Shown piece by piece: positions 48,935 to 64,000 of a DNA stretch of 64,000 bases. Source of the DNA: Thermoflexibacter ruber (lineage in GTDB: Bacteria; Bacteroidota; Bacteroidia; Cytophagales; Thermoflexibacteraceae). How positions within the stretch are numbered: position 1 is the first letter of the stretch; each line of letters opens with the position of its first letter. The stretch covers positions 1-64,000 of the forward strand of contig NZ_FONY01000026.1 in NCBI RefSeq assembly GCF_900113045.1, written 5' to 3'. The notes below the pieces were generated by a model. That model did no database searches, had not been told where the DNA came from, and saw only the letters and a program-made list of their open reading frames with translations. The position numbers and the translations under genes are program-made.

Positions 48935-49219
48935 ATGAAAAACAAAAGGTTGGTTATCATCTTAGCTGTAGCTGGTTCTCTGCTACTTGTCCCGCTTGTT
49001 GCCATGCAATTTACCAATGAAGTGGATTGGAAAGTTTCAGACTTTGCTATCATGGGAGTTTTATTACTTAGTACGGGTTTGCTATGCGAACTCATCATGC
49101 GGAAAATACAAAGTATGCAAAGAAGGATTATTCTTTGTGGTTTTATTTTATTGATTTTCTTACTTATTTGGGCAGAACTTGCCGTTGGGATATTTGGGAC
49201 ACCTTTTGCGGGTTCTTAG
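48935..49219 (+). CDS. Small three-helix membrane protein
   Basis: 94 residues with three membrane helices: VIILAVAGSLLLVPLVAM, FAIMGVLLLSTGLLCELIM, and IILCGFILLIFLLIWAELAVGIF, ending FGTPFAGS. Small proteins with the C-terminal WAELAVGIFGTPFAGS are frequent beside such winged-helix genes in Bacteroidota as I recall. It follows the regulator by 125 bp, with a palindrome between. Function unknown. Confidence 0.75.
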   Translation: MKNKRLVIILAVAGSLLLVPLVAMQFTNEVDWKVSDFAIMGVLLLSTGLLCELIMRKIQSMQRRIILCGFILLIFLLIWAELAVGIFGTPFAGS

Positions 49220-49624
49220 ACAAAGGAAAAAATAAGCATAAACTTATTCCAAATGGAATAAAATTATTCATTTTGGAATAGTTTTTCACAAAAATTCCCC
49301 CGAACTTTGGTCTAAGTAAAACGACGGTGGTACTTTCAAATGTATGATAATTTTAGGTGTTAAAAAAATCCGTTCCCATCGGTACAATCTGTGTCATCAG
49401 TATTCCAAAATAGAACATCGATAATACGGATTTGGCTGATAAACACAGAATTAAAATTGCTACACCTCAGTTTTGTACTAAAATCGTCCAAACTTTCGGG
49501 TACGCCATAGTGGTATCTTTACATACCAAATAAGCAAAATCAATTGATATGATTACTTATTGACAAGGTGTATCAGTGGCGGACTAAGAATTAAATGTAT
49601 TTATCTACAAATGAATGAACTGTA
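49220..49624. other. 405-base intergenic region with a hairpin and a dispersed repeat
   Basis: No gene is seen. Near 49248-49281 there are two TTATTCCAAATGGAATAA-like palindromic stretches that could end transcription of the membrane gene. The ACAGAT/CTGTGT repeat is at 49389-49448. A mildly repeat-like GGGTACGCCATAGTGGTATC follows at 49498. Confidence 0.5.
49389..49448. repeat. Dispersed element with CTGTGT...ACACAG ends
   Basis: CTGTGTCATCAG at the left and CTGATAAACACAG at the right are imperfect inverted repeats. It is a relative of the element at 11809-11883. Confidence 0.4.
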
Positions 49625-50251
49625 TCAAAGCATGAACTTCAAATACGCTATTTTTTTTGTTTCAAAAAACTCCTCCTCAAAAAAATCTTTCAGTGCATAA
49701 AACTTAAAATATCCTTTTACATTAGCAAATTCCTCTAACAAATCGCCGCCTTTGAGCATAAGAAATCCATTAGATAACTCATTATGACCTTCTTTTTTTA
49801 ACAAGTGTTTGGTCTGTTGGTAAAAAGTACTGACCTCTGCCACCGCCCTGCTCACAACAAAATCGTATTTGTTTTTTAAATCTTCTGAGCGAATCTGCTC
49901 ACAAGTAGCATTAGTCAGCCCCAGATGCCTGATTACTTCGCTTACTACTTTTATCTTCTTTCCTATGGAATCTATGAGATGAAATTTTACTTCGGGGAAA
50001 AAAATAGCCAAAGGGATAGCTGGGAAACCTCCACCAGTGCCTACATCTACTACCCTTGTCCCTGTTTGAAAATGGATAACCTTAGCAATGCTCAAAGAAT
50101 GAAGCACATGGCGTTCATAAAAATTATCCATATCTTTGCGAGAAATGACATTGATTTTTTCATTCCAATCATAGTAAATAGGCTGGAGTTGGGCAAAATG
50201 CTTTAGTTGCTGTTGCGTCAAATCAGAAAAGTATTTTAAAATTATCTCCAT
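49625..50251 (-). CDS. rsmG: 16S rRNA (guanine527-N7)-methyltransferase
   Basis: 208 residues from the ATG at 50251 (MEIILKYFSDLTQQQ); a TTG at 50278 would add nine. The SAM-dependent methyltransferase core shows VVDVGTGGGFPAIPLAIFFPEVKFHLIDSIGKKI and FVVSRAVAEV, the RsmG signature. It also has NVISRKDMDNFYERHVLHSL near the N-terminus. It methylates G527 in the 530 loop of 16S rRNA. Loss gives low-level streptomycin resistance in other bacteria. It is separated from ftsZ by a terminator. Confidence 0.94.
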   Translation of the reverse strand: MEIILKYFSDLTQQQLKHFAQLQPIYYDWNEKINVISRKDMDNFYERHVLHSLSIAKVIHFQTGTRVVDVGTGGGFPAIPLAIFFPEVKFHLIDSIGKKIKVVSEVIRHLGLTNATCEQIRSEDLKNKYDFVVSRAVAEVSTFYQQTKHLLKKEGHNELSNGFLMLKGGDLLEEFANVKGYFKFYALKDFFEEEFFETKKIAYLKFML

Positions 50252-50337
50252 TTTTTCAATTGTAAAAAGGAAAGACAAAGATAAAGCGAAAAATGAAAAG
50301 GCAAACGATGTGTCATGAATAAGTCAAAGGAAAGGAT

Positions 50338-50373
50338 AAAAAAACTTGCCCCACTCAAAAAGCAAAGCAAGTT
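50338..50373 (-). terminator. Rho-independent terminator of the mur/fts cluster, after ftsZ
   Basis: On the minus strand AACTTGC (50367-50373) pairs with GCAAGTT (50343-50349) and is followed by a seven-base T-run (50338-50344). It lies about 115 bases past the ftsZ stop. Confidence 0.65.
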
Positions 50374-50488
50374 CCAAATTCATTCATTATGCTTCAAATT
50401 CGAAAAATTGTAGTAAAAATCTCTTTATAATGGTTAAATAGGTAATAGTTAAATAGTTATTAAACCAATTTAATTCTCAAACTATTCA

Positions 50489-51934
50489 TTAATCCACATT
50501 ATCATGCAAAAATCTATTTCCTCCAAGCAGTCCGTTATCTTCCCCAATTTTGAGGCGCGAAAGATGATTTTCAGAAGAGTGAGGCACTTCTTTGAGTTCT
50601 ACTTTCTTGCGTAAGTAGGCAGGGATTTCCTTTTTCTCATTAAACTCCTCATTGCTTAGTTCGCTGAAGGAGCGTAAGTTATTGAGCTGTTTTTGACGTA
50701 TCTGAATGCTTACGTCCACCTCATCTTTTTTTTTTGCATCTTCGTACCCCTTCAGGCTTTTGTAGTCATCAGTTTCCAATTGGAAAACTACTTTTTCAGG
50801 CTTTTTCGCAGGAGTTACCATTTCCTTTTTCAGAGGTTTGACCTCCTCGTCTCCCTTGTCAAAAAAGTCCATGCTGTCCTCCAATTCCAACTTGATTTTG
50901 GGTGTAAGGATTTTATTTGACGGCAAATCATATACTACTCGTTTCTGTTCTATGTTCCTCTTGCTTTCAAAACCCGTAGCAATAATAGTTACAGTGATAG
51001 ATTCTCCCAAAGTTTCGTCTATTGCCTGCCCTAAAATTATCTCGGCTTCTTCTCCCGCTTTTTCTTGAACATACTCATTAATTTCTTCTAACTCACTCAT
51101 CTTGAAGTTGTCCAAATCTGAAACAGTGATACTGACCAAGATATGCCTTGCGCCAAAAATATCTGTATCGTTAAGGAGTGGCGAATTAATTGCCATCTCG
51201 ACAGCACGCTTGGCTCTATTTTCGCCGTCCACCGTAGCAGAACCCATTACGGCAGCTCCAGAGTCTTTGAGTACGGTTTTTACATCTTCAAAATCAACGT
51301 TTACCAAACCAGAAACAGTGATGATTTCTGCGATAGATTTTGCAGCCTTAGTCAAAACTTCATCAGCTTGATTAAATGCTTCTTTGACAGAAGTATTGCC
51401 ATAGATTTCTTTTAGACGATTGTTCAGAATCACAATGACTGCATCACAGTTGGCTCTGAGTTCTGCCAAGCCTTCCTCGGCTCGCTTGTATTTGGGTTTT
51501 CCCTCAAACATAAAAGGGAAAGTTACAATACCTACGGTCAAAATGCCCATTTCTTTGGCGATTTGAGCAATGACAGGAGCCGCACCCGTACCTGTTCCTC
51601 CGCCCATACCTGCGGTGATAAAAACCATTTTGGTATTGCTTGCCAAGATGTTACGGATTTCGTCTTTGCTTTCCATAGCAGCAGTTTTGCCTCTTTCGGG
51701 GTTCGCCCCTGCGCCCAAGCCTTTGGTAGAGTTTAGCCCAATTTGGATTTTATTAGGCACAGGACTCATTTGCAAAGCCTGAATATCGGTGTTGGCAACA
51801 TAAAATTCTACGCCTCGAATACCTTGGCGAAACATGTGGTTTACGGCATTGCTTCCGCCGCCGCCTACGCCAATCACCTTGATAATAGAGGTTTCATTGG
51901 CAGGATAATCAAATTCGTAAGTGCGCTCTTTCAT
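50489..51934 (-). CDS. ftsZ: Cell division protein FtsZ
   Basis: 481 residues, a tubulin-like GTPase that forms the Z-ring. The GTPase domain has VIGVGGGGSNAVNHMF, NTDIQAL, the tubulin signature GGGTGTGAAPVIAQIAKEMG, and NADEVL-type NQADEVLTKA. A long variable linker (about 340-430) leads to the C-terminal peptide IPAYLRKKV (about 438-446), the Bacteroidota version of the FtsA-binding tail. Unusually another 35 residues follow that peptide. It is the last gene of the dcw cluster, followed by a terminator. 172 bp separate it from ftsA, with AT-rich repeats between. Confidence 0.97.
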   Translation of the reverse strand: MKERTYEFDYPANETSIIKVIGVGGGGSNAVNHMFRQGIRGVEFYVANTDIQALQMSPVPNKIQIGLNSTKGLGAGANPERGKTAAMESKDEIRNILASNTKMVFITAGMGGGTGTGAAPVIAQIAKEMGILTVGIVTFPFMFEGKPKYKRAEEGLAELRANCDAVIVILNNRLKEIYGNTSVKEAFNQADEVLTKAAKSIAEIITVSGLVNVDFEDVKTVLKDSGAAVMGSATVDGENRAKRAVEMAINSPLLNDTDIFGARHILVSITVSDLDNFKMSELEEINEYVQEKAGEEAEIILGQAIDETLGESITVTIIATGFESKRNIEQKRVVYDLPSNKILTPKIKLELEDSMDFFDKGDEEVKPLKKEMVTPAKKPEKVVFQLETDDYKSLKGYEDAKKKDEVDVSIQIRQKQLNNLRSFSELSNEEFNEKKEIPAYLRKKVELKEVPHSSENHLSRLKIGEDNGLLGGNRFLHDNVD

Positions 51935-51945
51935 AGGTCTTTCAA

Positions 51946-51980
51946 AATTATGAATTATATATTAGGAATTAGGAATTATT
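51946..51980. repeat. AATTATGAATTAT-type simple repeat before ftsZ
   Basis: AATTATGAATTATATATTAG followed by GAATTAGGAATTATT is an array of near-identical GAATTA units, matching units at 54320-54350 and the reversed units at 52082-52108. Confidence 0.45.
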
Positions 51981-52091
51981 TTTAAAAATTTGATTATCAA
52001 ACACTTGTATTAATCCCTTATTCCCTTATGGTGTTTTATTTCATTTAAAATTTGATTTTATGAACGAGATTAAAAATTAAAGAAATTCATC

Positions 52092-52108
52092 ATTCATCAT
52101 TTATAATT
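52092..52108. repeat. 17-bp arm matching the arm before ftsQ (inverted)
   Basis: ATTCATCATTTATAATT is the exact reverse complement of AATTATAAATGATGAAT at 54327-54343. The two arms enclose ftsA and ftsQ. The left arm overlaps the ftsA stop codon (52107-52109). Confidence 0.55.
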
Positions 52109-53420
52109 AGTAGTTGTTTTCCCCAAAATCATCAATGAGTAGCTCTTTGGTTTTGCGGACAATTGTGCTAAAGAAGTCCCCTTTGGCTTGTTGCTTGGTG
52201 CTTTGCTTGCCTGTATGAGAAGGTGCATACGCCTGATGTGCATTCTTGAGGTAGTTTTCCTCTCTCTCATCTATGGTTTTGAAGCCCGCTAAGACCAATC
52301 CCATAGTGGTTGCAAACATGGGGAGTTTTACTTTCTCGTCCTTGCTTTTGCCTAAGTATTCGTTAGGGTAGCCGATTCGAGTGTCCAAGCCTGTTTTTAA
52401 CTCAAACAGAGACTGTATATTCAATAGTTGCGCCCCTCCTCCTGTAATCACAATGCCTCCTGCCAAGCGGTTGGCATAGCCAGAGCGTATGATTTCTGAG
52501 TGAACCAACTCGATAATCTCTTCCATTCTTGCTTCTATGATTCGTGCCAAATTTTTAATAGAAATTTCCTTGGGTGTTCTTCCCCTAATTCCGGGGATAG
52601 AAACAACCTCATTTTCTGTGGCTTCTTCTGATAGGGAATTTCCAAATTTGATTTTTAATAACTCTGCCTGATTATCAAGCACTTGACAGCCATGTTTGAT
52701 GTCAGAAGTAATAATATCACCTCCAAAGGGAATGACCGCCGTGTGGCGAATGATGCCATCATAGAAAATCGCAATGTCCGTAGTTCCACCGCCAATGTCG
52801 ACCAAAGCAATGCCTGCTTCTTTTTCCTCATCACTCAGTACAGCCAGACTGGAGGCTAAGGGTTCTAAAATCAAGTTCTCGATGTGCAAACCTGCTCTCT
52901 CTACTGCCCGTTTGATATTTTTAATAGCATTGGTTTGGGCTGTAATGATGTGAAAATCAGCCTCTAACTTTACGCCAGCCATGCCTACGGGGTCTTTGAT
53001 GTTCTCCTCATAGTCCACGATGTAGTGCTGTGGCATGACGTGAATAATCTCTGTACCGGGTTCTGTAACAATTCGATACATGTCATTGGTCAGGCGATTC
53101 AAGTCTTCCAACGTAATTTCATCATTATCAGAACTGCGGGTGATACTGCCGCGGTGTCTGAAACTCTTGATATGTTTCCCAGCAATCCCCACATTGACCA
53201 CGTTGATGTCAATGCCAGAGGTTTTTTCTGCTTCCTCTATGGCTTGGGTAATGCTGTCTGTCGTCTTATGGATATTGGAAACAATGCCCTCTTTCACTCC
53301 GTCAGAGTTAGCCTTGCCCACACCCAGAATTTCTAACTTTCCGTACTCATTTATGCGACCAACCATCGCACAAATCTTTGTCGTACCAATGTCGAGTCCT
53401 ACTACAATCTTTTCGTTCAT
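52107..53420 (-). CDS. ftsA: Cell division protein FtsA
   Basis: 437 residues of the actin-like ATPase that tethers FtsZ to the membrane. It begins KIVVGLDIGTTKICAMVGRI (phosphate-1) and has VDIGGGTTDIAIFYDG (phosphate-2) and GGIVITGGGAQLLN (adenosine). NVGIAGKHIKSFRHRG is the FtsA-specific subdomain. The C-terminal FFSTIVRKTKELLIDDFG is an amphipathic membrane-targeting helix. It lies between ftsQ and ftsZ, the usual order. Confidence 0.96.
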   Translation of the reverse strand: MNEKIVVGLDIGTTKICAMVGRINEYGKLEILGVGKANSDGVKEGIVSNIHKTTDSITQAIEEAEKTSGIDINVVNVGIAGKHIKSFRHRGSITRSSDNDEITLEDLNRLTNDMYRIVTEPGTEIIHVMPQHYIVDYEENIKDPVGMAGVKLEADFHIITAQTNAIKNIKRAVERAGLHIENLILEPLASSLAVLSDEEKEAGIALVDIGGGTTDIAIFYDGIIRHTAVIPFGGDIITSDIKHGCQVLDNQAELLKIKFGNSLSEEATENEVVSIPGIRGRTPKEISIKNLARIIEARMEEIIELVHSEIIRSGYANRLAGGIVITGGGAQLLNIQSLFELKTGLDTRIGYPNEYLGKSKDEKVKLPMFATTMGLVLAGFKTIDEREENYLKNAHQAYAPSHTGKQSTKQQAKGDFFSTIVRKTKELLIDDFGENNY

Positions 53421-53479
53421 TTTGTGTTACTTATTTGCATTTTATATTTTTTAGTTTTGCTTTTGCCCCTATCCTAAAT

Positions 53480-53545
53480 CCTTTCCCCTTCTGGGAAAGG
53501 ACTTTTCTGATATTTTCCCCTCTCCTTTGGGTAGGGGTGGGGTGT
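53480..53545. repeat. Family-F palindromes between ftsQ and ftsA
   Basis: CCTTTCCC/GGGAAAGG (53480-53500) and CCCCT/AGGGG (about 53517-53537) form two hairpins joined by ACTTTTCTGATATTTT. A shorter relative is at 48854 and a third is embedded in murE (63119-63155). Confidence 0.55.
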
Positions 53546-53548
53546 GCA

Positions 53549-54310
53549 TTACTCACAAACTATCTGATTATCAAAACCTAACTTAACTTTCTTGTACTTG
53601 TTCCAACCTTTCGCAGGGACTACTTGGCTGTAAAAAAGTCTTAATTTTTCCAATTTAGCTGAGTAGTCATCTACCAAGCCAAACTCAATTGCATGATTCC
53701 CTATTTGTGGATATATAGTTAAGTTATTGTATTCATCAATGTCAATTTCAGTGATTTGTGCCTTCCAGAAAGGGTCATTTTCAATGTGTTTCAAAAATTC
53801 AAACAAAGGCTTACCAAAATTTTTAGTGAGTTTGTTCTCCTTATCATAAATATGTTCCATTCCCTTTCCTGTGAGCAAAACCACTCTTGGCGTATAGTCC
53901 TCAGAAAGAGGCAGATATTCTCCATCTTTCCCTATGTAGTTGCCTTTTCCGTCATTTTTCAATATCCTTGCGATAGGCTGGGAAGGAATGATTTTTACTA
54001 CCAAATTCCCTTTTAAGTCCCTTGAAACCTCACAGTTAGACACAAAACCTGCTTCCTCCTCAATTTTTTTCTCAATTTCTGCTAAATCCGCATTGAGCAG
54101 TTTGCCATCTGCGGTTTGCTGAATCCCTTGACCGTCAATGATGCTACGCACCCGATTTTCATTAATCAGGTTTGGGGCGGTTGCTTCCTCAATCTTGACG
54201 ACTACGTTGCTGTAAGGCTTGTCGCCATAGCTAAACAAACTCGCAAAAGCCACTGCCGTTAAGACTGCCATAGACCCTAAAAATATTTTTACCCAAAGTT
54301 TTAGTTTCAT
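53549..54310 (-). CDS. ftsQ: Cell division protein FtsQ
   Basis: 253 residues: a short cytoplasmic tail, one membrane helix (VKIFLGSMAVLTAVAFASLF), a POTRA-like domain (VVVKIEEATAPNLINENRVRSII), then CEVSRDLKGNLVVKIIPSQPIARI and a beta domain ending FYSQVVPAKGWNKYKKVKLGFDNQIVC. FtsQ links early and late divisome proteins in the periplasm. Sequence is diverged as usual; position before ftsA supports the call. The upstream 290 bp lacks murC and holds repeats. Confidence 0.88.
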   Translation of the reverse strand: MKLKLWVKIFLGSMAVLTAVAFASLFSYGDKPYSNVVVKIEEATAPNLINENRVRSIIDGQGIQQTADGKLLNADLAEIEKKIEEEAGFVSNCEVSRDLKGNLVVKIIPSQPIARILKNDGKGNYIGKDGEYLPLSEDYTPRVVLLTGKGMEHIYDKENKLTKNFGKPLFEFLKHIENDPFWKAQITEIDIDEYNNLTIYPQIGNHAIEFGLVDDYSAKLEKLRLFYSQVVPAKGWNKYKKVKLGFDNQIVCE

Positions 54311-54601
54311 CTTTTTACTAATTATGAATTATAAATGATGAATTATGAATATTTTTCAAATTATAAATCACTGATAATCAATGTTTTTTTATTCCATAGG
54401 AATTTAATATTGGTAGCACTTAATTTATTTTTTCTATTAATGAACTCTGTTAGGAGTTCAATTCTTTTATTTTATATTCAACTCCTAACGGAGTTGGGAG
54501 GTTTTACTTGCTTTTTTCTACCACCAATATTGAATCCCTAACGGGATTTTCAAACAATTTCTAATTATGTATTCATTCCAGATTTGGTATTCCATTCCAT
54601 A
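54311..54601. repeat. Composite repeat block in the slot where murC is expected
   Basis: Three kinds of element sit side by side. AATTATGAATTATAAATGATG units lie at 54320-54350. A large near-palindrome at about 54391-54560 has ATTCCATAGGAAT, AATATTGGTAGCA, GAACTCTGTTAGGAGTTC, then the reverse set CAACTCCTAACGGAGTTG, CTACCACCAATATTG, AATCCCTAACGGGATT. The arm TCATTCCAGATTTGGTATTCC of the GGAATCTGGAAT family is at 54573. No coding sequence was seen. Confidence 0.65.
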
Positions 54602-55351
54602 TTAAACAACTCCTAACTTAAAAAGGTCTGCCTCCCTTTTCTCCTCATCACTCTTGCAAAGGCGTTTGAGCAACTCGTTATCTGCGTTCCATTTTGCTCC
54701 ATCAAAAAACTCAGTTCCCTTGTGGTCACGTACCTTGTAAAGAGCCTTTTCTTTGTAGCAAGTTCCTAAATAACAGTAGTTTAATCCATTGTCTTTTGCC
54801 CAGTGAATCACTCTCCACATCATCCATTTTCCCAAAGAATATTTCATGTATGCTATATCATAAAATGAAAACCAATAATGCAAAATTCCATTTTCTAAGG
54901 CTGTAAAAACATAGCCAAGTATCTGATTATCAGTTTTAAAAGCAAAAATATGCGTCAATAATTCTCTGCTCAATACATAGTCTAACCTATCGCTTGCCAT
55001 ACTACCCCCGCTAAATCTTTCCTCTGCATATTCAGTACAAAATCTCTGAAATTCAGGATTTTGTAAATCAAACTTACTTTTTTCTGTGATTTCTAATTGA
55101 ATATTTAACTCTGCTATTTTTCTATCCACTCGCCTATTTTCTGAACTGTCCTCAAAGTTTGCTAAGTTTACTCTTAGGCTACGAGCCATGTAAAATATAT
55201 CGCTCTTTATCTGATAGTTACCTGTATAAGGCAAAAACCCTTTTTCATAGATTGCTGGCAGTTCACTATTACTTTCTTTGATGCAATAAACCGCATAAGA
55301 AAATGTATAAGTGGTATAATCTATCTGATATTCTGAGTAAAAGATTTTCAT
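54602..55351 (-). CDS. Ate1/GNAT-like acyl- or aminoacyl-transferase
   Basis: 249 residues. The C-terminal half has IFAFKTDNQILGYVFTALENGILHYWFSFYDIAYMKYSLGKWMMWRVIHWAKDNGLNYCYLGTCY and LYKVRDHKGTEFFDGAKWNAD. This resembles the GNAT-fold C-terminal half of arginyl/leucyl-tRNA-protein transferases (Ate1/Bpt), which tag protein N-termini for degradation. The N-terminal Cys-rich part of classical Ate1 is not evident. A general acetyltransferase is the alternative. It starts 6 bases from the 24-bp inverted repeat of the neighbouring cassette, in the murG-ftsQ gap where murC is expected. Confidence 0.6.
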   Translation of the reverse strand: MKIFYSEYQIDYTTYTFSYAVYCIKESNSELPAIYEKGFLPYTGNYQIKSDIFYMARSLRVNLANFEDSSENRRVDRKIAELNIQLEITEKSKFDLQNPEFQRFCTEYAEERFSGGSMASDRLDYVLSRELLTHIFAFKTDNQILGYVFTALENGILHYWFSFYDIAYMKYSLGKWMMWRVIHWAKDNGLNYCYLGTCYKEKALYKVRDHKGTEFFDGAKWNADNELLKRLCKSDEEKREADLFKLGVV

Positions 55352-55356
55352 TGGTC

Positions 55357-55824
55357 AAATAGTTGAATAGTTTGATAGTTAAAGTTATTCTGACAATTTT
55401 TGTTTTGTTATCTTTATCAAATAATTTATCTGTCTGGGTAAATCATTCAGTTGTGAAAAGACATATTTGTATTTATTTTCATCCATTAGTTTTCTAACTT
55501 TTGCTTTTTCATTCCAATCTAAACATTCTTTTGCAGAGGCTCTTGCAATGATAAAAAACCTGATTTTATCTTTTTTATGATGCCTGCCTACTCCTTCTGC
55601 TATGTTTGCTGAAATGCTATCAACTGCCCTAACAAACTGCTTTCCAATAGTATCTTTTGAAAAGTTTTGCCATTCAACTACCAAATTCCACACATAATTA
55701 CTCAAATGAAAAGCTGTCTTATAAGCCTCAACATCATTCAGTTTAAGGTATCTTTTTTCTTCATTATTATCTTGTTTTTCCATCAGACTGATTTATTAAA
55801 AACTATCAAACTATTCAACTATTT
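55357..55824. mobile_element. 468-bp cassette: four-helix gene inside a perfect 24-bp inverted repeat
   Basis: The segments 55357-55380 and 55801-55824 are exact reverse complements over 24 bases. Each consists of three ATAGTT units (ATAGTTGAATAGTTTGATAG core). They enclose only the four-helix-bundle gene at 55385-55783, with 4 bp on its 3' side and 17 bp on its 5' side. The right arm covers the murG stop codon. Transcribed, the arms would pair and place the gene in a closed loop, like a 23S rRNA intervening sequence. Related ATAGTT arrays lie at 50443-50458 and 57325-57341. Mobility is inferred. Confidence 0.6.
55385..55783 (-). CDS. Four-helix-bundle protein (23S rRNA intervening-sequence type)
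   Basis: 132 residues of the S23/Avd-like four-helix-bundle family: LNDVEAYKTAFHLSNYVWNLV, then the signature KQFVRAVDSISANIAEGVGRHHKKDKIRFFIIARASAKECLDW, and helices to the end. Relatives are encoded in intervening sequences of 23S rRNA genes, and Avd is the accessory protein of diversity-generating reverse transcriptases, but no reverse transcriptase is here. The fold makes basic pentamers that bind nucleic acid. It sits between murG and an Ate1-like gene, enclosed by the 24-bp inverted repeat. Confidence 0.88.
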   Translation of the reverse strand: MEKQDNNEEKRYLKLNDVEAYKTAFHLSNYVWNLVVEWQNFSKDTIGKQFVRAVDSISANIAEGVGRHHKKDKIRFFIIARASAKECLDWNEKAKVRKLMDENKYKYVFSQLNDLPRQINYLIKITKQKLSE

Positions 55825-56902
55825 TAACTATCTCGTTTACAATCTCCCTTGAAGCATTTGGCTTTGCTAACTTCATAATGTTTTCTGCTAACTCTTTCTG
55901 CCTTTTTTCATCTTTTAGTAGCTCTATGGTTTTTGTAATCAGGGTATTGCTTGCCTCTCCATCTCTTACTAACACTGCTGCATTTTCATTGACCAAAGCC
56001 ATAGCATTTTTAGTTTGGTGGTCTTCAGCTACGTTGGGCGAAGGGACTAATATTGTTGGCTTCCCTGCCAAGCAAAGCTCCGAAACTGACAGCGCACCTG
56101 CTCTGGAAATCACAACATCTGCACAAGCATAGGCGTAATTCATTTTGTAGATAAAATCTTTAATATATAAATCTTTACTGTTTAGTGTATTAGCAAAGGC
56201 TTTCATTTCTTCAAAGTAGATTTTTCCTGTCTGCCAAATTACTTGATAGCCTTGTGTAAGTAGCTCATTCACACCATTTTTGAGGCAGTTGTTAATCGTT
56301 CTTGCTCCGAGGCTACCGCCTAAGACCAGTACTGTTTTCTTATTTTCCGATAAGTCAAAGAACTTAAATGCTTCACTTCTAATGCTTTCCAAATCTGTAA
56401 TGTCCTTGCGAACAGGATTTCCACAAAAGACGATTTTCTCTTTGGGGAAATAACGTTCCATATTTGGGTACGCCACACAAATCTTGTTTACTGACTTCGC
56501 TACTAACTTGTTGGTCAGTCCTGCATAACTATTTTGCTCTTGAATTAGCGTTTTAATTCCCTGCCAAACAGCTACTTGCATAACTGCTCCACTTGCATAT
56601 CCGCCTACGCCAATTACCGCATCTGGTTTAAAATCTTTTACTATTTTCCATGCCTTCCACAAACTTTGCAACAGTTTGAAAGGGAAAGCCAAATTTTCTA
56701 CTGTCAATTTCCTTTGCAAACCCCGAATTGGCAATCCTACGATTTTAAAACCTGCTTTAGGTACTTTTTCCATTTCCATTTTTCCTTCCGCCCCTACAAA
56801 AAGTATCTCACAATCAGGAATTTGTGCCTTTAGTTCTTGGGCTATTGCTATTGCGGGGTAAATATGTCCGCCTGTACCACCGCCACTAATTATAAACTTC
56901 AT
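55811..56902 (-). CDS. murG: UDP-GlcNAc:lipid I N-acetylglucosaminyltransferase
   Basis: 363 residues of GT28. It adds GlcNAc to lipid I to give lipid II at the inner face of the membrane. Seen: the N-terminal SGGGTGGHIYPAIAIAQEL, PDAVIGVGGYASGAVM, LIQEQNSYAGLTNK, VLVLGGSLGARTIN, and the donor site VISRAGALSVSELCLAGKPTILVPSP with DHQTKNA. The ATG at 56902 overlaps the stop of the HD gene (ATGA), so translation is coupled. The stop lies inside the inverted-repeat arm of the next cassette. Confidence 0.97.
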   Translation of the reverse strand: MKFIISGGGTGGHIYPAIAIAQELKAQIPDCEILFVGAEGKMEMEKVPKAGFKIVGLPIRGLQRKLTVENLAFPFKLLQSLWKAWKIVKDFKPDAVIGVGGYASGAVMQVAVWQGIKTLIQEQNSYAGLTNKLVAKSVNKICVAYPNMERYFPKEKIVFCGNPVRKDITDLESIRSEAFKFFDLSENKKTVLVLGGSLGARTINNCLKNGVNELLTQGYQVIWQTGKIYFEEMKAFANTLNSKDLYIKDFIYKMNYAYACADVVISRAGALSVSELCLAGKPTILVPSPNVAEDHQTKNAMALVNENAAVLVRDGEASNTLITKTIELLKDEKRQKELAENIMKLAKPNASREIVNEIVKIVE

Positions 56903-57318
56903 AACCCAACTAATTCTCGATAAGCCTTCAAATACTTATTCAGTCGTTCTGTATCTGTATCAGATACTTGGCGAAGTCTGCGAATATCCATATTGTCCTC
57001 TAAGTCATTGATTTTGACTTTTATTGCCAATGGATTGGTTTTCACTCTCTCGATAAATTCCTCATAGCTTTCGCCTTCTCGCTTTGTTAAGCAGTCTAAT
57101 GCCTCAATGATTTTATGAGAAAAGCCTTCTGCCTTTAATTTGTCCAATGTCCAAGATGTATCTTCCACAGTATCGTGCAGTAAAGCAGTGATTTTCTCAT
57201 CTTCACTTTTCCCTTTCGCCATCACTTGAAAAATATGCAAGATGTAAGGCTTGCCTGCTTTGTCCGTCTGCCCCTTGTGCGCCTCTATTGCTATCTCGAT
57301 TGCACGTTGTAAATTCAT
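56899..57318 (-). CDS. Small HD-domain hydrolase (alarmone hydrolase-like)
   Basis: 139 residues from the ATG at 57318; a GTG at 57324 is in frame. The pattern IAIEAHKGQTDKAGKPYILHIFQVM, ALLHDTVEDTSWTLDKL and VKINDLEDNMDIRRL is the Mn-dependent (p)ppGpp hydrolase HD domain of SpoT/Mesh1. No synthetase, TGS or ACT domain follows. It may degrade (p)ppGpp or NADPH-like nucleotides. Its 4-bp overlap with murG ties its translation to that of murG. It is not a usual dcw cluster gene. Confidence 0.85.
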   Translation of the reverse strand: MNLQRAIEIAIEAHKGQTDKAGKPYILHIFQVMAKGKSEDEKITALLHDTVEDTSWTLDKLKAEGFSHKIIEALDCLTKREGESYEEFIERVKTNPLAIKVKINDLEDNMDIRRLRQVSDTDTERLNKYLKAYRELVGL

Positions 57319-57433
57319 AAACACAATAGTTAAAATAGTTAATTATTAGATGGTTACTACAAGGGTAAATTTGAAACTTTGTTAATTATTGCTGGTTGTT
57401 AGTTGTTTATCAAGTATTTATCTCTCTAAATCC

Positions 57434-57601
57434 TTATCGAAGCACAAACTTTTCGTATTCTTCTTCAAACTTCACTTTCTGATGATGTTCTTGTTGTTTA
57501 TAAATGTATTTTCTAACTCTTTGAATCATGGATTCACTAATAGAAACCGCAAAATACTCATCTATCCATTTCAATTTTCTTTTAAATATTGAAAAACCAC
57601 C
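57434..57601 (-). pseudogene. C-terminal scrap of an IS200/RAYT-type transposase
   Basis: In the gap between ftsW and the HD gene, the minus strand reads WIDEYFAVSISESMIQRVRK then YIYKQQEHHQKVKFEEEY EKFVLR and a stop at 57434, open for 55 codons with no usable start and a TGA at 57602. The pattern (EYF-V-S, YI-x-Q-x-EHH, FEEEY) matches the C-terminus of Y1 (tyrosine) transposases of IS200/IS605 and RAYT type. The catalytic HUH and Tyr regions are gone, so it is a remnant. Similarity is from memory. Confidence 0.7.
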
Positions 57602-57613
57602 TCAAACAAAACC

Positions 57614-58783
57614 CTACGCCCTCGCCACTTTCCTATCCCTATTAAAAATCTTCTCCTTCGCACTTTGCAAAATCGGTTTGTACGTATTGCTACGACTTAC
57701 GCTGATAATGATGCCAATAGACGCACCTGTCAAAAGCAAAGACGTTCCTCCCATACTCACCAGAGGTAATTGCAAGCCTGTAACGGGCAGGATTCCTGTT
57801 GCTACCCCCATATTTATCATAGCTTGGAAAACTACACTAAAACTCAGCCCTGCCGAGAGCAATCCACCAAAGGCATTTTCACTTTGATTGACCGCCAACA
57901 TTCCCCGATACAAGAGCGTAAGGAACAGACCTATGACTACCACTGCTCCTAAGAAGCCATATTCCTCTACCAAAATTGCAAAGATAAAATCTGAATAAGG
58001 GTGTGGTAAAAAGTTCCGCTGATGGCTTTGTCCTGGTCCCTTGCCTGCAAAGCCTCCAGTCGCTATGGCAATATAAGACTGCTCTGTTTGGAAAGGCAGG
58101 TGATTAGGGTCAAGGTACGAACTCATACGATTTTTTACCGTTCCACCTCTCTGTCCTACTGCCAAAGCCAATGCGCCTACTACTACTCCCACAGCCACCA
58201 TGCCCGCCAAGTATCTCAAAGGCATTCTACCAATAAACATTATGAGCATACAAGTCAAGAACAGAATGATTGCCCCAGAGAAATCGCTCAAAGCAATTAG
58301 CCCGCAAATCAAACCGCACCAAAACAAAATCGGTATCAAGGTTTTCTCAATATTCCTAATGTTTTGCTGACGCTTAGAAAGCATACTCGCCACATTTGCA
58401 ATCAATGCCAACTTTGCCAAATCCGCAGGTTGGAAAGTATGATTGAGATAAGGAATTGTAATCCAGCGAGTTGCATCATTTATCGTAGTTCCATAGCCCC
58501 AAGTAAAAATCAGCATGGGCACAGAAAACAGCAGTGCTAAGCGTGAAATCCTTGAAAAATACTTGTAGTCCACTTTGTGGCAAACCCACATGACAACAAA
58601 ACTCAACACAAACAACAAGGAATGTTTGAGCAAATAAGATTCGCTGTCTTTGCCCATTTTGAAGGCAAGCGTACCTGTAGCACTGTAAACCAACAAGATA
58701 CTGATAAGTGCCAAGATAAAAACTACCCCCCATATAATTGGGTCGCCTTCTAATAATTTGCGCTCTTTAAGTGCGTTTGTCAT
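57614..58783 (-). CDS. ftsW: Cell division glycosyltransferase FtsW (SEDS)
   Basis: 389 residues with about ten membrane helices. SEDS motifs: FVVMWVCHKVDYKYF early, TFQPADLAKLALIANVASML, LIALSDFSGAIILFLTC, the extracellular loop with SYLDPNHLPFQTEQSYIAIATGGFAGKGPGQSHQRNFLPHPYSDFIFAIL including the catalytic region Glu, and LPLVSMGGTSLL. FtsW polymerises lipid II at the septum with its partner class B PBP, which is not in this window. Where murD would be expected upstream, a four-helix gene and repeats are found. Confidence 0.95.
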   Translation of the reverse strand: MTNALKERKLLEGDPIIWGVVFILALISILLVYSATGTLAFKMGKDSESYLLKHSLLFVLSFVVMWVCHKVDYKYFSRISRLALLFSVPMLIFTWGYGTTINDATRWITIPYLNHTFQPADLAKLALIANVASMLSKRQQNIRNIEKTLIPILFWCGLICGLIALSDFSGAIILFLTCMLIMFIGRMPLRYLAGMVAVGVVVGALALAVGQRGGTVKNRMSSYLDPNHLPFQTEQSYIAIATGGFAGKGPGQSHQRNFLPHPYSDFIFAILVEEYGFLGAVVVIGLFLTLLYRGMLAVNQSENAFGGLLSAGLSFSVVFQAMINMGVATGILPVTGLQLPLVSMGGTSLLLTGASIGIIISVSRSNTYKPILQSAKEKIFNRDRKVARA

Positions 58784-58800
58784 ATAATTAAAAATCTTTT

Positions 58801-58896
58801 AATTTGGAATCTGGAATAATTAAAACAGAGCCAATTAACTAATTTGGAATCTGGAATAATTTTTAATTCTTAATTTTATATTTCTCATTCCAGATT
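58801..58896. repeat. GGAATCTGGAAT-family element after the second four-helix gene
   Basis: Two direct copies of AATTTGGAATCTGGAATAAT (58801-58820, 58841-58860) are followed after an AT-rich loop by ATTTCTCATTCCAGATT (58880-58896), whose ATTCCAGATT pairs with AATCTGGAAT. TGTATTTCATT follows, with TCA at 58911-58913 being the stop of the adjacent gene. Family members are also at 54573, 59364, 60647, 63403 and 63981. Confidence 0.7.
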
Positions 58897-58910
58897 TGTA
58901 ATTTTGTATT

Positions 58911-59315
58911 TCATTCTGTATTCTTTGTGTTTTTCTTCTTTTCTTCATCTGCTATTTTTTGTTTTGTAGTACGTAAAATAGCACCGATTAACCTTATCAA
59001 TTCTTCACAATCATTGATTCTTGTATTTGCTATTTCTGGCTTCAAATAATTGCTATCTCTCAATAACCTTAACCAATACTTTGATTCTCTTGCCTCTTTA
59101 TATGCAATAGAAAATTTTGCGGCAAAATCTCTCAAAGTATGTCCCCCAATTCCTTCTTCTACATTTGCACCTATCGAAGTTCCACTTCTTAAAACTTGTT
59201 TTGAAAGAACATACTCCTTATTATCAGATAAAATTTTATACACTTCAATAATTTTCAAGGCAAAATCATAACTTTTAGTAAGCACAGGGTTATTTTCATC
59301 ACTTTGCCTTTTCAT
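58911..59315 (-). CDS. Second four-helix-bundle protein (23S rRNA intervening-sequence type)
   Basis: 134 residues. The core KEYVLSKQVLRSGTSIGANVEEGIGGHTLRDFAAKFSIAYKEARESKYWLRLLRDSNYL is the four-helix-bundle signature, from a different subgroup than the first copy at 55385 (low similarity). The tail is Lys-rich and helical. It fills the slot between mraY and ftsW where murD normally lies. A 17-base direct repeat, ATTTCTCATTCCAGATT, flanks it at 58880-58896 and 59364-59380. The same comments on nucleic-acid binding apply; function unknown. Confidence 0.87.
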   Translation of the reverse strand: MKRQSDENNPVLTKSYDFALKIIEVYKILSDNKEYVLSKQVLRSGTSIGANVEEGIGGHTLRDFAAKFSIAYKEARESKYWLRLLRDSNYLKPEIANTRINDCEELIRLIGAILRTTKQKIADEEKKKNTKNTE

Positions 59316-59363
59316 ATTCTATAAAAATTTAAAATTTGATTTCATTAAACATTCCGTATTGGC

Positions 59364-59397
59364 ATTTCTCATTCCAGATTAATCAATTCCAAATTTT
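59364..59397. repeat. GGAATCTGGAAT-family arm between mraY and the four-helix gene
   Basis: ATTTCTCATTCCAGATT (59364-59380), then AATCA and ATTCCAAATT. Read in reverse complement this is AATTTGGAAT..AATCTGGAAT, so it can pair with the left-hand copies at 58801 and 58841 across the gene. Confidence 0.6.
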
Positions 59398-59400
59398 GCA

Positions 59401-60615
59401 TTACCTAATTTTCAAACTCACCAAGCAAAAAATCGCCAGCATAATCCCTACTATCCAAAACCTCGTAACAATCTTTACCTCATGGATTTGTTTTTTCTGA
59501 AAATGATGATGCAAAGGCGACATCAAAAATATCCTTCTGCCTTCTCCATATTTCTTTTTTGTATATTTGAAATAAGCCACCTGAATCATTACAGAGAGGT
59601 TTTCCACCAAAAATATCCCGCATAAAATTGGAATCATTACCTCTTTTCGCACCATAATCGCCAAAGTTGCTATCAATGCTCCCAAAGTCAAACTCCCCGT
59701 ATCTCCCATAAAAACTTGGGCGGGATAGGAGTTGTACCAAAGAAAACCGATACACGCACCTACAAAAACTGTTGCGAAGATTGCTAACTCGCCTGTATGA
59801 GGTATAAACATCACATTCAAATAGTTAGCAAAAATTGCATTGCCCGAAACGTAGGCAAAAACTGCCAATACTACCCCAATAATTGCTGAAGTTCCCGCCG
59901 CCAAACCGTCCAAACCGTCAGTAATATTTGCCCCATTGGAAACGGCAGTGATAATAAAAATCACAAAAGGAATATAAATGACCCAAGTCCATTCACTATC
60001 TAAGAAAAATACTAAATCATGGTAATCAAATTCATTGAACTTAAAAAATGGAATGGTAGTAATACTTGATTTAACATCTTGATAATACCCTTTTTGCAAA
60101 AGTTCTACGACATTATTTCCTTTGCTTTTGTCAAACTGTCGAACCACCACATTATCGTTTACGTACAAAGTTATCCCTACAACCAAGCCCAAAATTATCT
60201 GCCCTATGACTTTGAATCTACCTTTTAATCCTTCCTTGTCTTTTTTGAAAACTTTGATGTAATCATCTACAAAACCAATGAAGCCTGCAAAGAGTAATGT
60301 AATGATTAACAGCACAATATACACATTGGTCAAGCGAGTAAAGAGCAAAGTTGGAATCAAAATCGCAATGATGATAATGATGCCACCCATCGTAGGCGTT
60401 CCCTTTTTTTGCATTTGCCCTTCCAAGCCCAAATCTCTGATGACCTCTCCGACTTGCTGTTTTTGTAAGTAATTGATAATTTTTCTACCAAAAATCGCTA
60501 CTATCAGTAAGGACAACACCGCCGCCATACTTGCCCGAAAGGTGATGTACTGAAACAAACCTGCCCCCGGTAGATTAAATTGCTCGTCTAAATATTGAAA
60601 TAAGTAGTAAAGCAC
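59401..60615 (-). CDS. mraY: Phospho-N-acetylmuramoyl-pentapeptide transferase
   Basis: 404 residues with about ten membrane helices. It joins UDP-MurNAc-pentapeptide to undecaprenyl phosphate (lipid I). Seen: [13 protein letters not shown], the Asp motif [34 protein letters not shown], and [12 protein letters not shown], then [11 protein letters not shown] roughly 40-residue insertion with [19 protein letters not shown] is typical for Bacteroidota. The start is a GTG at 60615 ([14 protein letters not shown]). It is isolated from murE by a toxin-like pair and from ftsW by a four-helix gene. Confidence 0.97.
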
Positions 60616-60646
60616 TGTTTTTTGAATTTTAAATTAGAAATCATTT

Positions 60647-60733
60647 AATTTGGAATCTGGAATAAAAGTCAAATTTTTTAATCTTTTAATTATTTTCATT
60701 CCTAATTCCTCATTCCAGATTTTGTATTTCATT
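60647..60733. repeat. GGAATCTGGAAT-family hairpin after the DUF6922 gene
   Basis: AATTTGGAATCTGGAATAA (60647-60665) and TCATTCCAGATTTTGTATTT (60710-60729) with CATT after form a stem of about ten base pairs around an AT-rich loop. The DUF6922 stop (60734) follows at once. Confidence 0.65.
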
Positions 60734-61012
60734 TCATTGTTCTTCAATAAATCTTTCAAAAAGCTCGTCCCAAGAATTGCATTTTTCAAAGTAAGGGAGT
60801 AAAGCCTGAAACAATAAAATTCTTTTCTCACTTGTACGTAACTTCTTGAAATCTATATATTTGATATTTTCTTTAAATTCTTCGTAAGGATACCTCAGAA
60901 TATCGGGAAACCAAGCGTATTCCAAAATTCTCTGTACTCTGAATTTGGATTCATCATTCATAGTGTAATCCCAAAAATAGGGTTTAAAATAGTCGCTTAC
61001 TGTTTTTTGCAT
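60734..61012 (-). CDS. DUF6922-like partner of the AbiEii-type toxin
   Basis: 92 residues: VSDYFKPYFWDYTMNDESKFRVQRILEYAWFPDILRY, then YIDFKKLRTSEKRILLFQALLPYFEKCNSWDELFERF. The YF-pyFWD start and W-x-D helix pattern resemble DUF6922 proteins, which commonly accompany AbiEii-type nucleotidyltransferases and may be the antitoxin. Here it lies after the toxin-like gene and overlaps it by 29 bp, whereas antitoxin-first order is more usual. It is inserted between murE and mraY. Confidence 0.65.
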   Translation of the reverse strand: MQKTVSDYFKPYFWDYTMNDESKFRVQRILEYAWFPDILRYPYEEFKENIKYIDFKKLRTSEKRILLFQALLPYFEKCNSWDELFERFIEEQ

Positions 61013-61673
61013 TGGTCAAAATCCTCTTTTTCAAATCTTTAATAAAATTATCATATTGTATTCCATCAAAAGTTTCACTCACAAGCACTGTCCCTGCTAT
61101 TTTTTCCCCTGTCAGAGCCATCAATGTTCCCTCATAATCCCAAGGCACCATTTTTAATTCGGTCAATTTGCTCATTTCATCTAAGTCAAACTCTTTGAGT
61201 AAATACATTAAATCAAAAAAATCTTTATTTGCTTTTCTGTCATCTACAGCTGTTAGTTTATTTACAACTATATTTTCCTTGCTATCTATCAGGTAATTAT
61301 CTATTTTTCTTAATACTCCAATATGTTTAAAATTTTCATAAATAAATTCCAATTTTAGGGTAGTTCCGCTCTCATTGACCATTATTCTTTTGAAATAATC
61401 TGCATTTACCGTAGTTTGTAAGAGGAATCTATTGCTTATCAAATTTGCAAGCCTAACAAACTCATTTTCAAAAGCATCTTTACTATATTTTTCTCCCAAA
61501 AAGAAAAAATCCAAGTCATCAGAATAGCGGTAATGGTAATAGTATCTTGCTAAACAAGTGCCTCCCGTCAAGTAAAACTTATCTGAGTCCATGATTGCCA
61601 ACGCCTTGTCCATGAGTGGATAAAGTCTGTTTTCATAATATGTCTTTTCTTCTATGGTGGCTTGGCGAATCAT
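60984..61673 (-). CDS. AbiEii/AbiGii-type nucleotidyltransferase (toxin-like)
   Basis: 229 residues with the nucleotidyltransferase pattern KFYLTGGTCLARYYYHYRYSDDLDFFFLG: GG-T, then DDLD as metal-binding Asp pair. Further blocks include NKLTAVDDRKANKDFFDLMYLL. AbiEii-type enzymes (MenT-like) stop growth by adding nucleotides to tRNA acceptors, and act as toxins or phage abortive-infection factors. It is coupled by a 29-bp overlap to the DUF6922-like gene. Its place inside a wall-synthesis cluster is unusual. Confidence 0.8.
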   Translation of the reverse strand: MIRQATIEEKTYYENRLYPLMDKALAIMDSDKFYLTGGTCLARYYYHYRYSDDLDFFFLGEKYSKDAFENEFVRLANLISNRFLLQTTVNADYFKRIMVNESGTTLKLEFIYENFKHIGVLRKIDNYLIDSKENIVVNKLTAVDDRKANKDFFDLMYLLKEFDLDEMSKLTELKMVPWDYEGTLMALTGEKIAGTVLVSETFDGIQYDNFIKDLKKRILTNAKNSKRLF

Positions 61674-61748
61674 TGTTTTAATGAATTATAAATTTTTGTA
61701 ATTTCAAATTTCAATGATGCTATTGTATTCTTTATTCTGTTAAGAATC

Positions 61749-61850
61749 TAATATTGGTAGCAAGTTCGTTTTCCCTCTCATTCTTACCCATAGAGGTTTT
61801 ATCTTTTTCTACAAAACGGTCATTCCTAACAGAGTTTTAGATTTCCATTT
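61749..61850. repeat. Dispersed AATATTGGTAGCA repeat, between murE and the toxin pair
   Basis: CTAATATTGGTAGCAAG, ACCCATAGAGGT, a TTTTTCTACA linker, and ATTCCTAACAGAGTTTTAG are in the same order as in the block at 54391-54560, but decayed. It lies just past the murE stop (61896) in the 222-base gap. Confidence 0.55.
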
Positions 61851-61895
61851 TTTAAGTGTTGCACACCGCTTGTTATCACGTGAAAAACCAAACTA

Positions 61896-63326
61896 CTAAC
61901 TTTCCAACAACTCACTCATTATCTTCTTATCATCAAAAGGATACTTTATTCCCTTGATTTCCTGATAGTTCTCGTGCCCTTTGCCAGCGACCAAGATGAT
62001 GTCGTTTGGTTGTGCCATTTTTACTGCTTCTGCTAAGGCTTCTTTTCTATCTGTCATTACAAGCGTCTTATCTTCAGCGTCTTGTGGCACTCCTTTTTTC
62101 ATGTCTTCTAATATCGCTTCGGGTTCTTCAAATCGTGGGTTGTCCGAAGTAAGTATCACTTTATCAGAGAGTTCACAAGCTATTTTTGCCATGATAGGTC
62201 GTTTGGTCGCATCTCTATTTCCGCCACAACCCACTACAGTAATGACTTTTTCCTTTCCTGTTCTCGTTTTTTGTATATTTTCCAACACATTTTTCAGTGC
62301 GTCAGGTGTATGAGCATAGTCAATGATAGCAAACACCTTATTTTTGCCTATCACCTTGTCAAATCGCCCTGCCGCAGGTTCTATGTTAGACAAGATTTCT
62401 AAGACTTTACTTTTCTCTTCGCCCAATAAAACTGCCGCCGCATAAATGCCAAGCAAATTGTAAGCATTGAAGCTACCAGAAAGTTTGAACCAAACTCTTT
62501 GATTGTCAATTTCTAATTCAAGTCCTTCAAAGGTATTGGCAATAATTTTTGCTTTGAAATCTGCCATAGAGTTCAGTGCAAAAGTATGGTGTTTGCCTTT
62601 GCAGTTTTGCAACATGACTAAGCCATTTTTATCGTCTTTATTGACTAAGGCAAAGGCATTTTCCTCCAAATTGTCAAAGAACATCTTTTTGGCTTTCAAA
62701 TACTCTGCAAAGGTTTTGTGAAAATCCAAGTGGTCATGCGTAATATTAGAAAACATTGCACCTGAGTACTTTATACCTGCAACTCTGTGCTGGGCTAAGG
62801 CATGAGAGCTGACTTCCATGAATACATGAGTACATTTTCTTTCTGCCATCAATGCCAGCAACTTATTCAGTTCCAAAGCGTCAGGGGTGGTATAGTTAGT
62901 TGGGATAACTTCCTCATCTATACGGTTTTCAATCGTAGAAATCAAACCTACCTTGTATCCCAACTCCCTAAATAAGCGGTAAAGAAGTGTTACAGTCGTC
63001 GTTTTTCCATTTGTCCCCGTGATACCCACCAATTTGAGTTTTTCAGAGGGATTGTCGTAAAAATTGCTTGCCATCATGCCCAAAGCAGCAGCAGAATTTT
63101 GGACTTTTATTATTACCGCCCCACCGAAACCTTCTCCCTCGGGGAGGGTTTTAAGGGCATTTTGTTCTTCTAAAACTATGGCTACTGCTCCACTCTCTAT
63201 TGCTTTGCTGATGAACTGGTGCCCGTCAGACTGCAAACCTTTGACAGCGACAAACACATCTCCCTGCTGAACTTTGCGTGAATCAAACCGTACCTGATTG
63301 ATTACTAAGTCCGTGGCTCCCTGCAA
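61896..63326 (-). CDS. murE: UDP-MurNAc-tripeptide (mDAP) ligase MurE, non-standard start
   Basis: 476 residues from the TTG at 63326. It adds the third stem residue to UDP-MurNAc-L-Ala-D-Glu. Motifs: DSRKVQQGDVFVAVKG, GTNGKTTTVTLL (ATP loop), MEVSSHALAQHRVAGIKY, NITHDHLDFH, and DNPRFEEP, the motif for meso-diaminopimelate. Homology-like sequence continues upstream of the TTG (NLKNILTNIPHQVLQGATD) for 18 codons to a TAA at 63381, with no ATG, GTG or TTG there, so the start is unclear. The segment KTLPEGEGFGG (59-69) is encoded by a palindromic repeat. A toxin pair follows. Confidence 0.93.
   Translation of the reverse strand: MQGATDLVINQVRFDSRKVQQGDVFVAVKGLQSDGHQFISKAIESGAVAIVLEEQNALKTLPEGEGFGGAVIIKVQNSAAALGMMASNFYDNPSEKLKLVGITGTNGKTTTVTLLYRLFRELGYKVGLISTIENRIDEEVIPTNYTTPDALELNKLLALMAERKCTHVFMEVSSHALAQHRVAGIKYSGAMFSNITHDHLDFHKTFAEYLKAKKMFFDNLEENAFALVNKDDKNGLVMLQNCKGKHHTFALNSMADFKAKIIANTFEGLELEIDNQRVWFKLSGSFNAYNLLGIYAAAVLLGEEKSKVLEILSNIEPAAGRFDKVIGKNKVFAIIDYAHTPDALKNVLENIQKTRTGKEKVITVVGCGGNRDATKRPIMAKIACELSDKVILTSDNPRFEEPEAILEDMKKGVPQDAEDKTLVMTDRKEALAEAVKMAQPNDIILVAGKGHENYQEIKGIKYPFDDKKIMSELLES
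63119..63155. repeat. Palindromic repeat embedded in frame inside murE
   Basis: The strand reads AAAACCCTCCCCGAGGGAGA and continues AGGTTTCGGTGGGG on the minus strand: CCCTC/GAGGG is a tight hairpin. It resembles the family-F palindromes at 53480 and 48854, and encodes residues KTLPEGEGFGG of MurE. Confidence 0.5.
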
Positions 63327-63402
63327 AACTTGGTGAGGGATATTAGTTAATATGTTTTTTAAATTTTGAATAACTAATTTTTAATTACAAATGACTAATC
63401 TT

Positions 63403-63495
63403 AATCTGGAATCTTTAAATGTGGAATCTGAAATTATTTTAATTCTTAATTTTTCATTCCAGATTCCAGATTATGTATTTCATTCCAGATTTTTA
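63403..63495. repeat. GGAATCTGGAAT-family element before murE
   Basis: AATCTGGAATC (63403-63413) and GTGGAATCTGAAATT lead to TTTTCATTCCAGATTCCAG at about 63451, then TGTATTTCATTCCAGATT (63474-63491). It lies between murE's start region and the stop (63500) of the upstream gene. Confidence 0.6.
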
Positions 63496-63499
63496 AACT

Positions 63500-63886: not shown

Positions 63887-64000
63887 ACTGTTAAGTGTTT
63901 AATGATTAATAATGAATTATTGTTGAAAGCAAAAGTGAATTACTATTCTTAATTTGAAATTTGATTTTTAAAACTTTTTGTTCCAGATTTTCTTACCCCA

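Follow-up and report, generated by a model that had tools for sequence, protein, structure and literature searches.

An S23-type gene framed by inverted word arrays in the mur cluster of Thermoflexibacter ruber: a candidate intervening element between cistrons

In this study, we explored the surroundings of a small four-helix-bundle gene in a 64,000-nt stretch of Thermoflexibacter ruber DNA (contig NZ_FONY01000026.1, positions 1 to 64,000), hereafter the window. The unit that holds this gene and the neighbouring mur genes all lie on the minus strand, in the transcription order mraY, a PF05635 gene, ftsW, an HD/RelA-like gene, murG, the unit itself and a GNAT/ATE_C-like gene:

59401-60615, minus strand: mraY
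58911-59315, minus strand: the other PF05635 gene of the window, flanked by mraY and ftsW (L001; inverted flanks not significant; outside the arm-bearing set)
57614-58783, minus strand: ftsW
57325-57355, minus strand: scar, a right-arm-like remnant at the ftsW-HD junction (from the alignment and the end of a BLASTN block)
56899-57324, minus strand: small HD/RelA-like gene (HD_4 score slightly below the cut-off)
55811-56902, minus strand: murG, the upstream host cistron (open reading frame)
55801-55824, minus strand: 5' arm in the sense of transcription, with three octamer-like words and the murG stop codon inside
55385-55783, minus strand: cargo gene for a 132-aa four-helix-bundle protein (PF05635/TIGR02436), the sole open reading frame between the arms
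55357-55380, minus strand: 3' arm, starting 4 nt past the cargo stop, with the next ATG 5 nt beyond its end
54602-55351, minus strand: downstream host cistron, GNAT/ATE_C-like (open reading frame and profile match)

The frame at 55811-56902 we take to be murG from its sequence; murG matches occur in 12 of the 13 family genomes, the window genome included, and that of the congener is 93% identical. By eye and by repeat search, the arms are exact reverse complements over 24 nt, as a previous sequence-only reading had described, with mismatches at the first bases both outside and inside; the repeat search lengthens them to 31 nt at 90% (55350-55380 and 55801-55831), and the whole unit measures 468 nt. 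The same reading correctly placed the murG stop in the right arm and a single S23-type gene between the arms, the cargo protein matching PF05635 at E 6.5e-24 (84.6 bits, curated cut-off 33.8) and TIGR02436 at E 6.9e-25 (87.4 bits, cut-off 24). Its murG-ftsQ junction has to be corrected: the next gene downstream is the GNAT/ATE_C-like one, and the frame at 53549-54310, ftsQ-like by position only, has no Pfam match. In the PDB, the cargo protein matches 2gsc (E 0.00027) and, weakly, 2rld (E 0.029), each with five chains. Avd of diversity-generating retroelements has a related pentameric four-helix fold. Unlike Avd, the window's cargo gene has no adjoining reverse transcriptase; the two reverse transcriptase matches of the genome (PF00078) lie on contigs C59 and C77 and the window on C33, so a system of that kind is rejected. 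Phage or plasmid cargo is rejected as well, given no phage match and a single plasmid match of 36% identity (Pseudanabaena), as is a known RNA family, since a comparison of 49000-64000 with Rfam at E values up to 0.5 gave no match. Inside the unit there is no transposase.

Against dinucleotide shuffles of its 150-nt flanks, the unit reaches an inverted local score of 48, and its inverted arms are not due to chance. The three PF05635 genes of the window genome, namely that of the unit (L002), L001 and L003, have inverted z values of 14.7, 0.7 and 12.2 and direct ones of 0.1, 5.2 and 10.9, respectively. In the predicted RNA fold the arms pair as a closing stem (24-bp duplex, -30.3 kcal/mol), A/U-rich; for the complete element, the gain in folding over shuffled sequences is modest (z -2.95). 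The window arm is composed of a word close to ATAGTT plus 2 nt, which is also present elsewhere: with up to three mismatches, the 24-mer is found at seven genome sites, two of them the window arms, and a backwards-read control pattern at 0. Near copies of the arm lie at the centres of L006, L007, L008 and L009, within spacers of the window genome; as judged by eye, some of these face an inverted partner with no gene between, possibly as solo hairpins. Further degenerate word tracts without a cargo gene are seen in the window at 50428-50459, 51946-51979 and 54320-54350 (AATAGTTA, AATTATG).

Intervening sequences (IVSs) of 23S rRNA are thought to spread horizontally. That of Coxiella burnetii is 428-444 nt long, holds an S23 ORF and ends in a 28-bp stem within which RNase III cuts in vitro; a Xanthomonas protein is termed a homopentamer in the same paper (PMC4990558). 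The IVS-like build proposed in the sequence-only reading holds on this comparison, the window unit likewise having a single S23-type ORF within a loop that its complementary ends close (stem 24 bp, length 468 nt) and a sporadic distribution, PF05635 genes being patchy at two junctions surveyed below; the Coxiella IVS is its closest match in build. Unlike 23S rRNA IVSs, the window unit lies between cistrons of a protein operon (murG and the GNAT-like gene) and not in an rRNA gene, its type of arm is a word array that varies by locus, and cutting is here only presumed. PF05635 ORFs also occur in rRNA insertions of candidate phyla, in 16S as well as 23S genes, and thus share the cargo family; the available portions of that account concern rRNA only, mention neither operon-junction copies nor word arms, and call the family functionally uncharacterised (PMC11270868). 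The TAACTGA heptamer repeats, intergenic in Beggiatoaceae, Cyanobacteria and Bacteroidetes, resemble window-type arms as 7-nt tandem words, mostly intergenic and near start codons, but they are one fixed word, direct (with one inverted case), and in the available text show no link to PF05635, the terms S23, 23S and four helix having 0 occurrences there (PMC4679880). In a fish-pathogen genome, a four-helix gene between guanylate kinase and nicotinate-nucleotide adenylyltransferase is filed under phage items, and its placement fits the operon-junction pattern (PMC5524665). Among the matches listed in the open-access literature (titles and starts of abstracts), there is no account of PF05635 operon-junction genes with word arms, which is no proof of absence; GxxExxY occurs in two papers, one of which gives it a passing mention.

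Inverted arms recur with the gene family. We compared the 150 nt upstream of each start with the reverse complement of the 150 nt downstream of the stop, with a threshold of z>4. Other S23-type genes with flanking repeats, which the sequence-only reading had proposed to seek, were found: flanks were inverted at 38 and direct at 13 of 58 PF05635 loci (mostly best-scoring matches, no random draw), and at 14 and 4 of 24 further loci. In 20 stretches of 19.5 kb, inverted flanks enclosed 17 of the 23 PF05635 genes and direct ones 1, against 7 and 10 of the 284 other genes (Fisher p 9e-18 for 17/23 vs 7/284); the 58-locus and 20-stretch counts are not independent, because 15 of the 23 genes occur in both. 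Arms at z>4 are missing in 20/58, 10/24 and 6/23 cases, among them the window's second gene and L032, and direct repeats equal or exceed the inverted ones in strength at some loci (e.g. L027, L028, L036, L070). The 58-locus test omitted six partial or split matches (L029, L030, L034, L035, L040, L041) and retained L071 and L091, with broken or short reading frames; L071 was dropped from the period, word-sharing, cross-locus and orientation counts. Overall, PF05635 matches are present in 211 of 291 sampled genomes of the order, often in several copies.

The arms are built of short words that differ between loci (e.g. GTACCAA, AGACATA, ATTGTTAA, TTATAAG, AGGGCTT), a feature absent from the sequence-only reading, as are the tie of these degenerate 7-8-nt words to protein subfamily and a second, similar gene family (both below). 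Clear arms were present at 48 of the 81 loci, and their best period was 7 (19 loci), 14 (13), 8 (13) or other (3). In-register identity between arms has a median of 0.86 at these 48 loci, versus 0.66 after a shift of one or two words; the test is biased because the best register was picked, and for the period, too, the best value between 4 and 14 was taken. On this biased comparison, pure word tracts without true pairing were set aside. For compensatory changes, two related pairs were compared (L056/L073 and L051/L053), too few for a claim. Inverted scores of at least 30 were reached within the locus in 39/81 cases (direct, 15/81) and across loci in 22 of 810 pairings; the shared ends of a transposon or MITE are therefore not seen, arm ends being common only within protein subfamilies. 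A classical transposon with fixed ends is rejected, since the arms differ between loci.

In a congener (G011), the orthologous PF05635 gene is flanked by ftsW and the HD gene, whereas in the window genome it follows murG; the BLASTN block between the two runs from window 55364 to 55819, almost arm to arm, at 81% identity. The murG-GNAT junction of G011 retains a scar, formed by the final codons of the cargo gene and an arm, and a right-arm fragment persists in the window genome between ftsW and HD. With each genome keeping a scar at the site that is filled in the other, the two junctions were once occupied by one subfamily, which was lost reciprocally or moved, histories that are here indistinguishable. 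Thus, of the movable cassette of the sequence-only reading, what stands is the different place in the congener and the absence of PF05635 from most relatives at two other junctions, and what does not is a choice of movement over loss. Another PF05635 gene of G011 sits exactly at what is in the window genome the 4-nt HD/murG overlap, and by eye a different type of word flanks it on either side (L032; inverted z 0.8, direct 5.1). A possible 4-nt ATGA at this junction is the one target duplication seen, and the requirement for a stop codon and a start codon also accounts for it. Window 57424-57583 matches part of an IS200-like Y1 transposase gene; this gene (PF01797) is intact in G011 (L042, 7906-8337), at the same ftsW-HD junction and 1.2 kb before the relocated copy.

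Taken with the surveys, we consider it rather probable that the window unit is a small mobile element of IVS-like build set between mRNA cistrons. Alternatively, although this seems unlikely to us, it could be a DNA element moved in trans, whose arms serve as terminal hairpins for an IS200-like (Y1) or another transposase, as in MITEs or REP/RAYT, any sense bias then reflecting selection in operons. Hairpin ends are typical of Y1 elements, and the intact transposase gene and its remnant suit this explanation; yet the Y1 linkage is seen at one locus only, and a transposase would be expected to need common ends, whereas the arms differ by locus, as the cross-locus pairings illustrate.

The mobile-element reading gains from the match between words and proteins, compared among 47 clear-arm loci only (loci without arms do not count). 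Words are shared in sense by 60 of the 64 protein pairs at least 60% identical and in antisense by 2; at 50-60% identity (n=67) the shares are 27% and 0%, and below 30% they are 4/600 each. Within the window subfamily fall 42 of the 64 pairs, 39 sharing in sense and 0 in antisense, while many of the other 22 are not independent, because their scores exceed 100 and they probably represent one site in related genomes. The cleanest subset is the cross-phylum one, with four candidate-phyla loci (L080, L081, L082, L086) sharing words with seven Bacteroidota loci in 20/28 pairs in sense and 0 in antisense, although the bins may contain foreign contigs. A single protein search (13 loci) supplied the relatives of the window protein, which is 52-61% identical to 11 of them (L079-L089) and 20-21% to the two others of its own genome. 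Arms at z>4 are present in 10 of these 11 (the exception is L087, z 0.2), their flanking ORFs vary between loci by eye, and the nearest relatives are found in other phyla. Many forks are unresolved in the protein tree (79 rows, 123 columns), which is alone no proof of transfer.

Arms also occur by themselves. Inverted repeats are present in 38 of 185 intergenic regions, three of them by eye clear gene-less word hairpins (L098 8495, L101 5381, L108 7288), and with such hairpins in the same genomes, the arms need no cargo. The sequence-only reading had named two outcomes that would count against it, relatives that all lack arms and arms that are widespread without the gene; since arms recur with the PF05635 family the first does not apply, and the second is partly true. 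It might be argued that the arrays are ordinary intergenic hairpins in which PF05635 genes merely survive best, gene and arms being separate entities. The gene-less hairpins favour this, as do the near copies of the window 24-mer at five other genome sites, but only the 7/284 other genes are enclosed, three of the five listed among them adjoining a PF05635 gene (L092, L101, L102), and the words go with subfamily across phyla and differing sites; we find this explanation quite unlikely.

The orientation of the genes is strongly biased. At the 81 loci, both neighbours lie on the gene's strand in 71, both on the opposite strand in 3, with 3 mixed cases and 4 without a usable neighbour. Among the 23 PF05635 genes of the 20 stretches, 21 are in sense and 2 in antisense, with 0 at divergent or convergent joints, which account for 53/242 of the background joints. 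Such a preference for sense suggests that the transcript plays a part, although counter-selection of genes in antisense could also produce it. Empty sites were surveyed in one other genus, at two junctions (61 genomes and 30 inspected loci per junction; genes named by eye), and the PF05635 gene is present in 3/30 loci at the pepA-pdxA joint and in 1/30 at the SDR-ABC joint. It is absent from the sister of the filled SDR-ABC locus (neighbour 98% identical), and two of the 29 gene-less SDR-ABC loci have a longer spacer with other content (639 and 770 nt). In the filled loci that were read, the unit takes the place of the spacer found in relatives, starting at the stop codon of the host gene and reaching the following ATG; L163, closest to the filled L162, lacks the gene and keeps a right-arm-like piece. 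At pepA-pdxA, the three filled loci have genes of 68-73% identity that are mutual best matches, so old orthologous insertions with repeated loss could cause part of the patchiness; their main words are AGGGCTT in one unit and AGTGCTT in two, which suggests that words change jointly along both arms. Gene-less junctions with another kind of G+C-rich palindrome were noted by eye (L163, L194, L195, L198, L200). It is very unlikely that the arms are a processing or termination stem isolating a useful resident gene, subject to loss only and without mobility: the related genes at the filled pepA-pdxA loci of three species and the scars of loss agree with it, but the gene is missing in 27/30 and 29/30 loci at the two junctions, and members of a subfamily have differing neighbour genes in different phyla.

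How might such an IVS-like mobile element work? It would consist of one PF05635 gene inside inverted arrays of degenerate 7-8-nt words, fitting flush from the stop codon of one cistron to the start codon of the next, in the operon sense. Once transcribed, the arms would form a stem that closes a gene-bearing loop, like the ends of 23S rRNA IVSs, and RNase III or a like enzyme may cut this stem, freeing the cargo mRNA and leaving both neighbours whole. Because the unit sits between cistrons, it could be excised without a broken host frame, and insertion would therefore be nearly neutral. The cargo protein is probably a pentamer and, since words go with protein subfamily, it is likely to recognise the word-arms of its own unit; set against arrays of 7-8-nt words, its five subunits would make an attractive, if putative, picture. 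Movement itself would depend on RNA or on the hairpin.

PF13366 (PD-(D/E)XK-like) was taken up as a second candidate family. Inverted flanks are seen at 18 of 27 PF13366 loci and direct ones at 11 (z>4), and 20/25 lie in sense between two co-directional genes. Their words are of a different sort (ACACAGAG, ACAGGATT, CGCAAAG) and a period of 7-8 is not dominant; word sharing between PF05635 and PF13366 arms at a score of at least 30 occurs in 0.1% of 705 pairings, and among PF13366 loci antisense sharing (7.6% of 105) is about as frequent as sense (8.6%). Loci at contig edges (L112, L130, L134) were skipped, and the broken loci L131 and L138 were kept in the flank count and dropped from the period, word and orientation counts. 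The arrangement looks similar to that of PF05635 but is less clean. Two PF13366 genes, L121 and L141, have very long arms (53 nt, 92%, and 52 nt, 100%, respectively).

More tentatively, and falling somewhat short of an even chance, there may be an unnamed, widespread class of operon-junction elements, with PF05635 or, separately, PF13366 as cargo inside inverted arrays of degenerate 7-9-nt words that co-evolve between the two arms and correspond to the cargo protein; these elements would spread across phyla in sense via mRNAs, the classical 23S rRNA IVS being the special rRNA case. If PF05635 genes are the cargo of mRNA-borne intervening elements, their scatter would be explained, the puzzling 23S rRNA insertions would gain a wider family, a testable pairing of protein and word would be on offer, and a selfish element could persist nearly cost-free within essential operons, the mur cluster being an example. 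Elsewhere inside this cluster, window 60734-61673 holds an AbiEii-type nucleotidyltransferase gene with a small overlapping ORF, and the congener seemingly holds a different small gene in the same interval.
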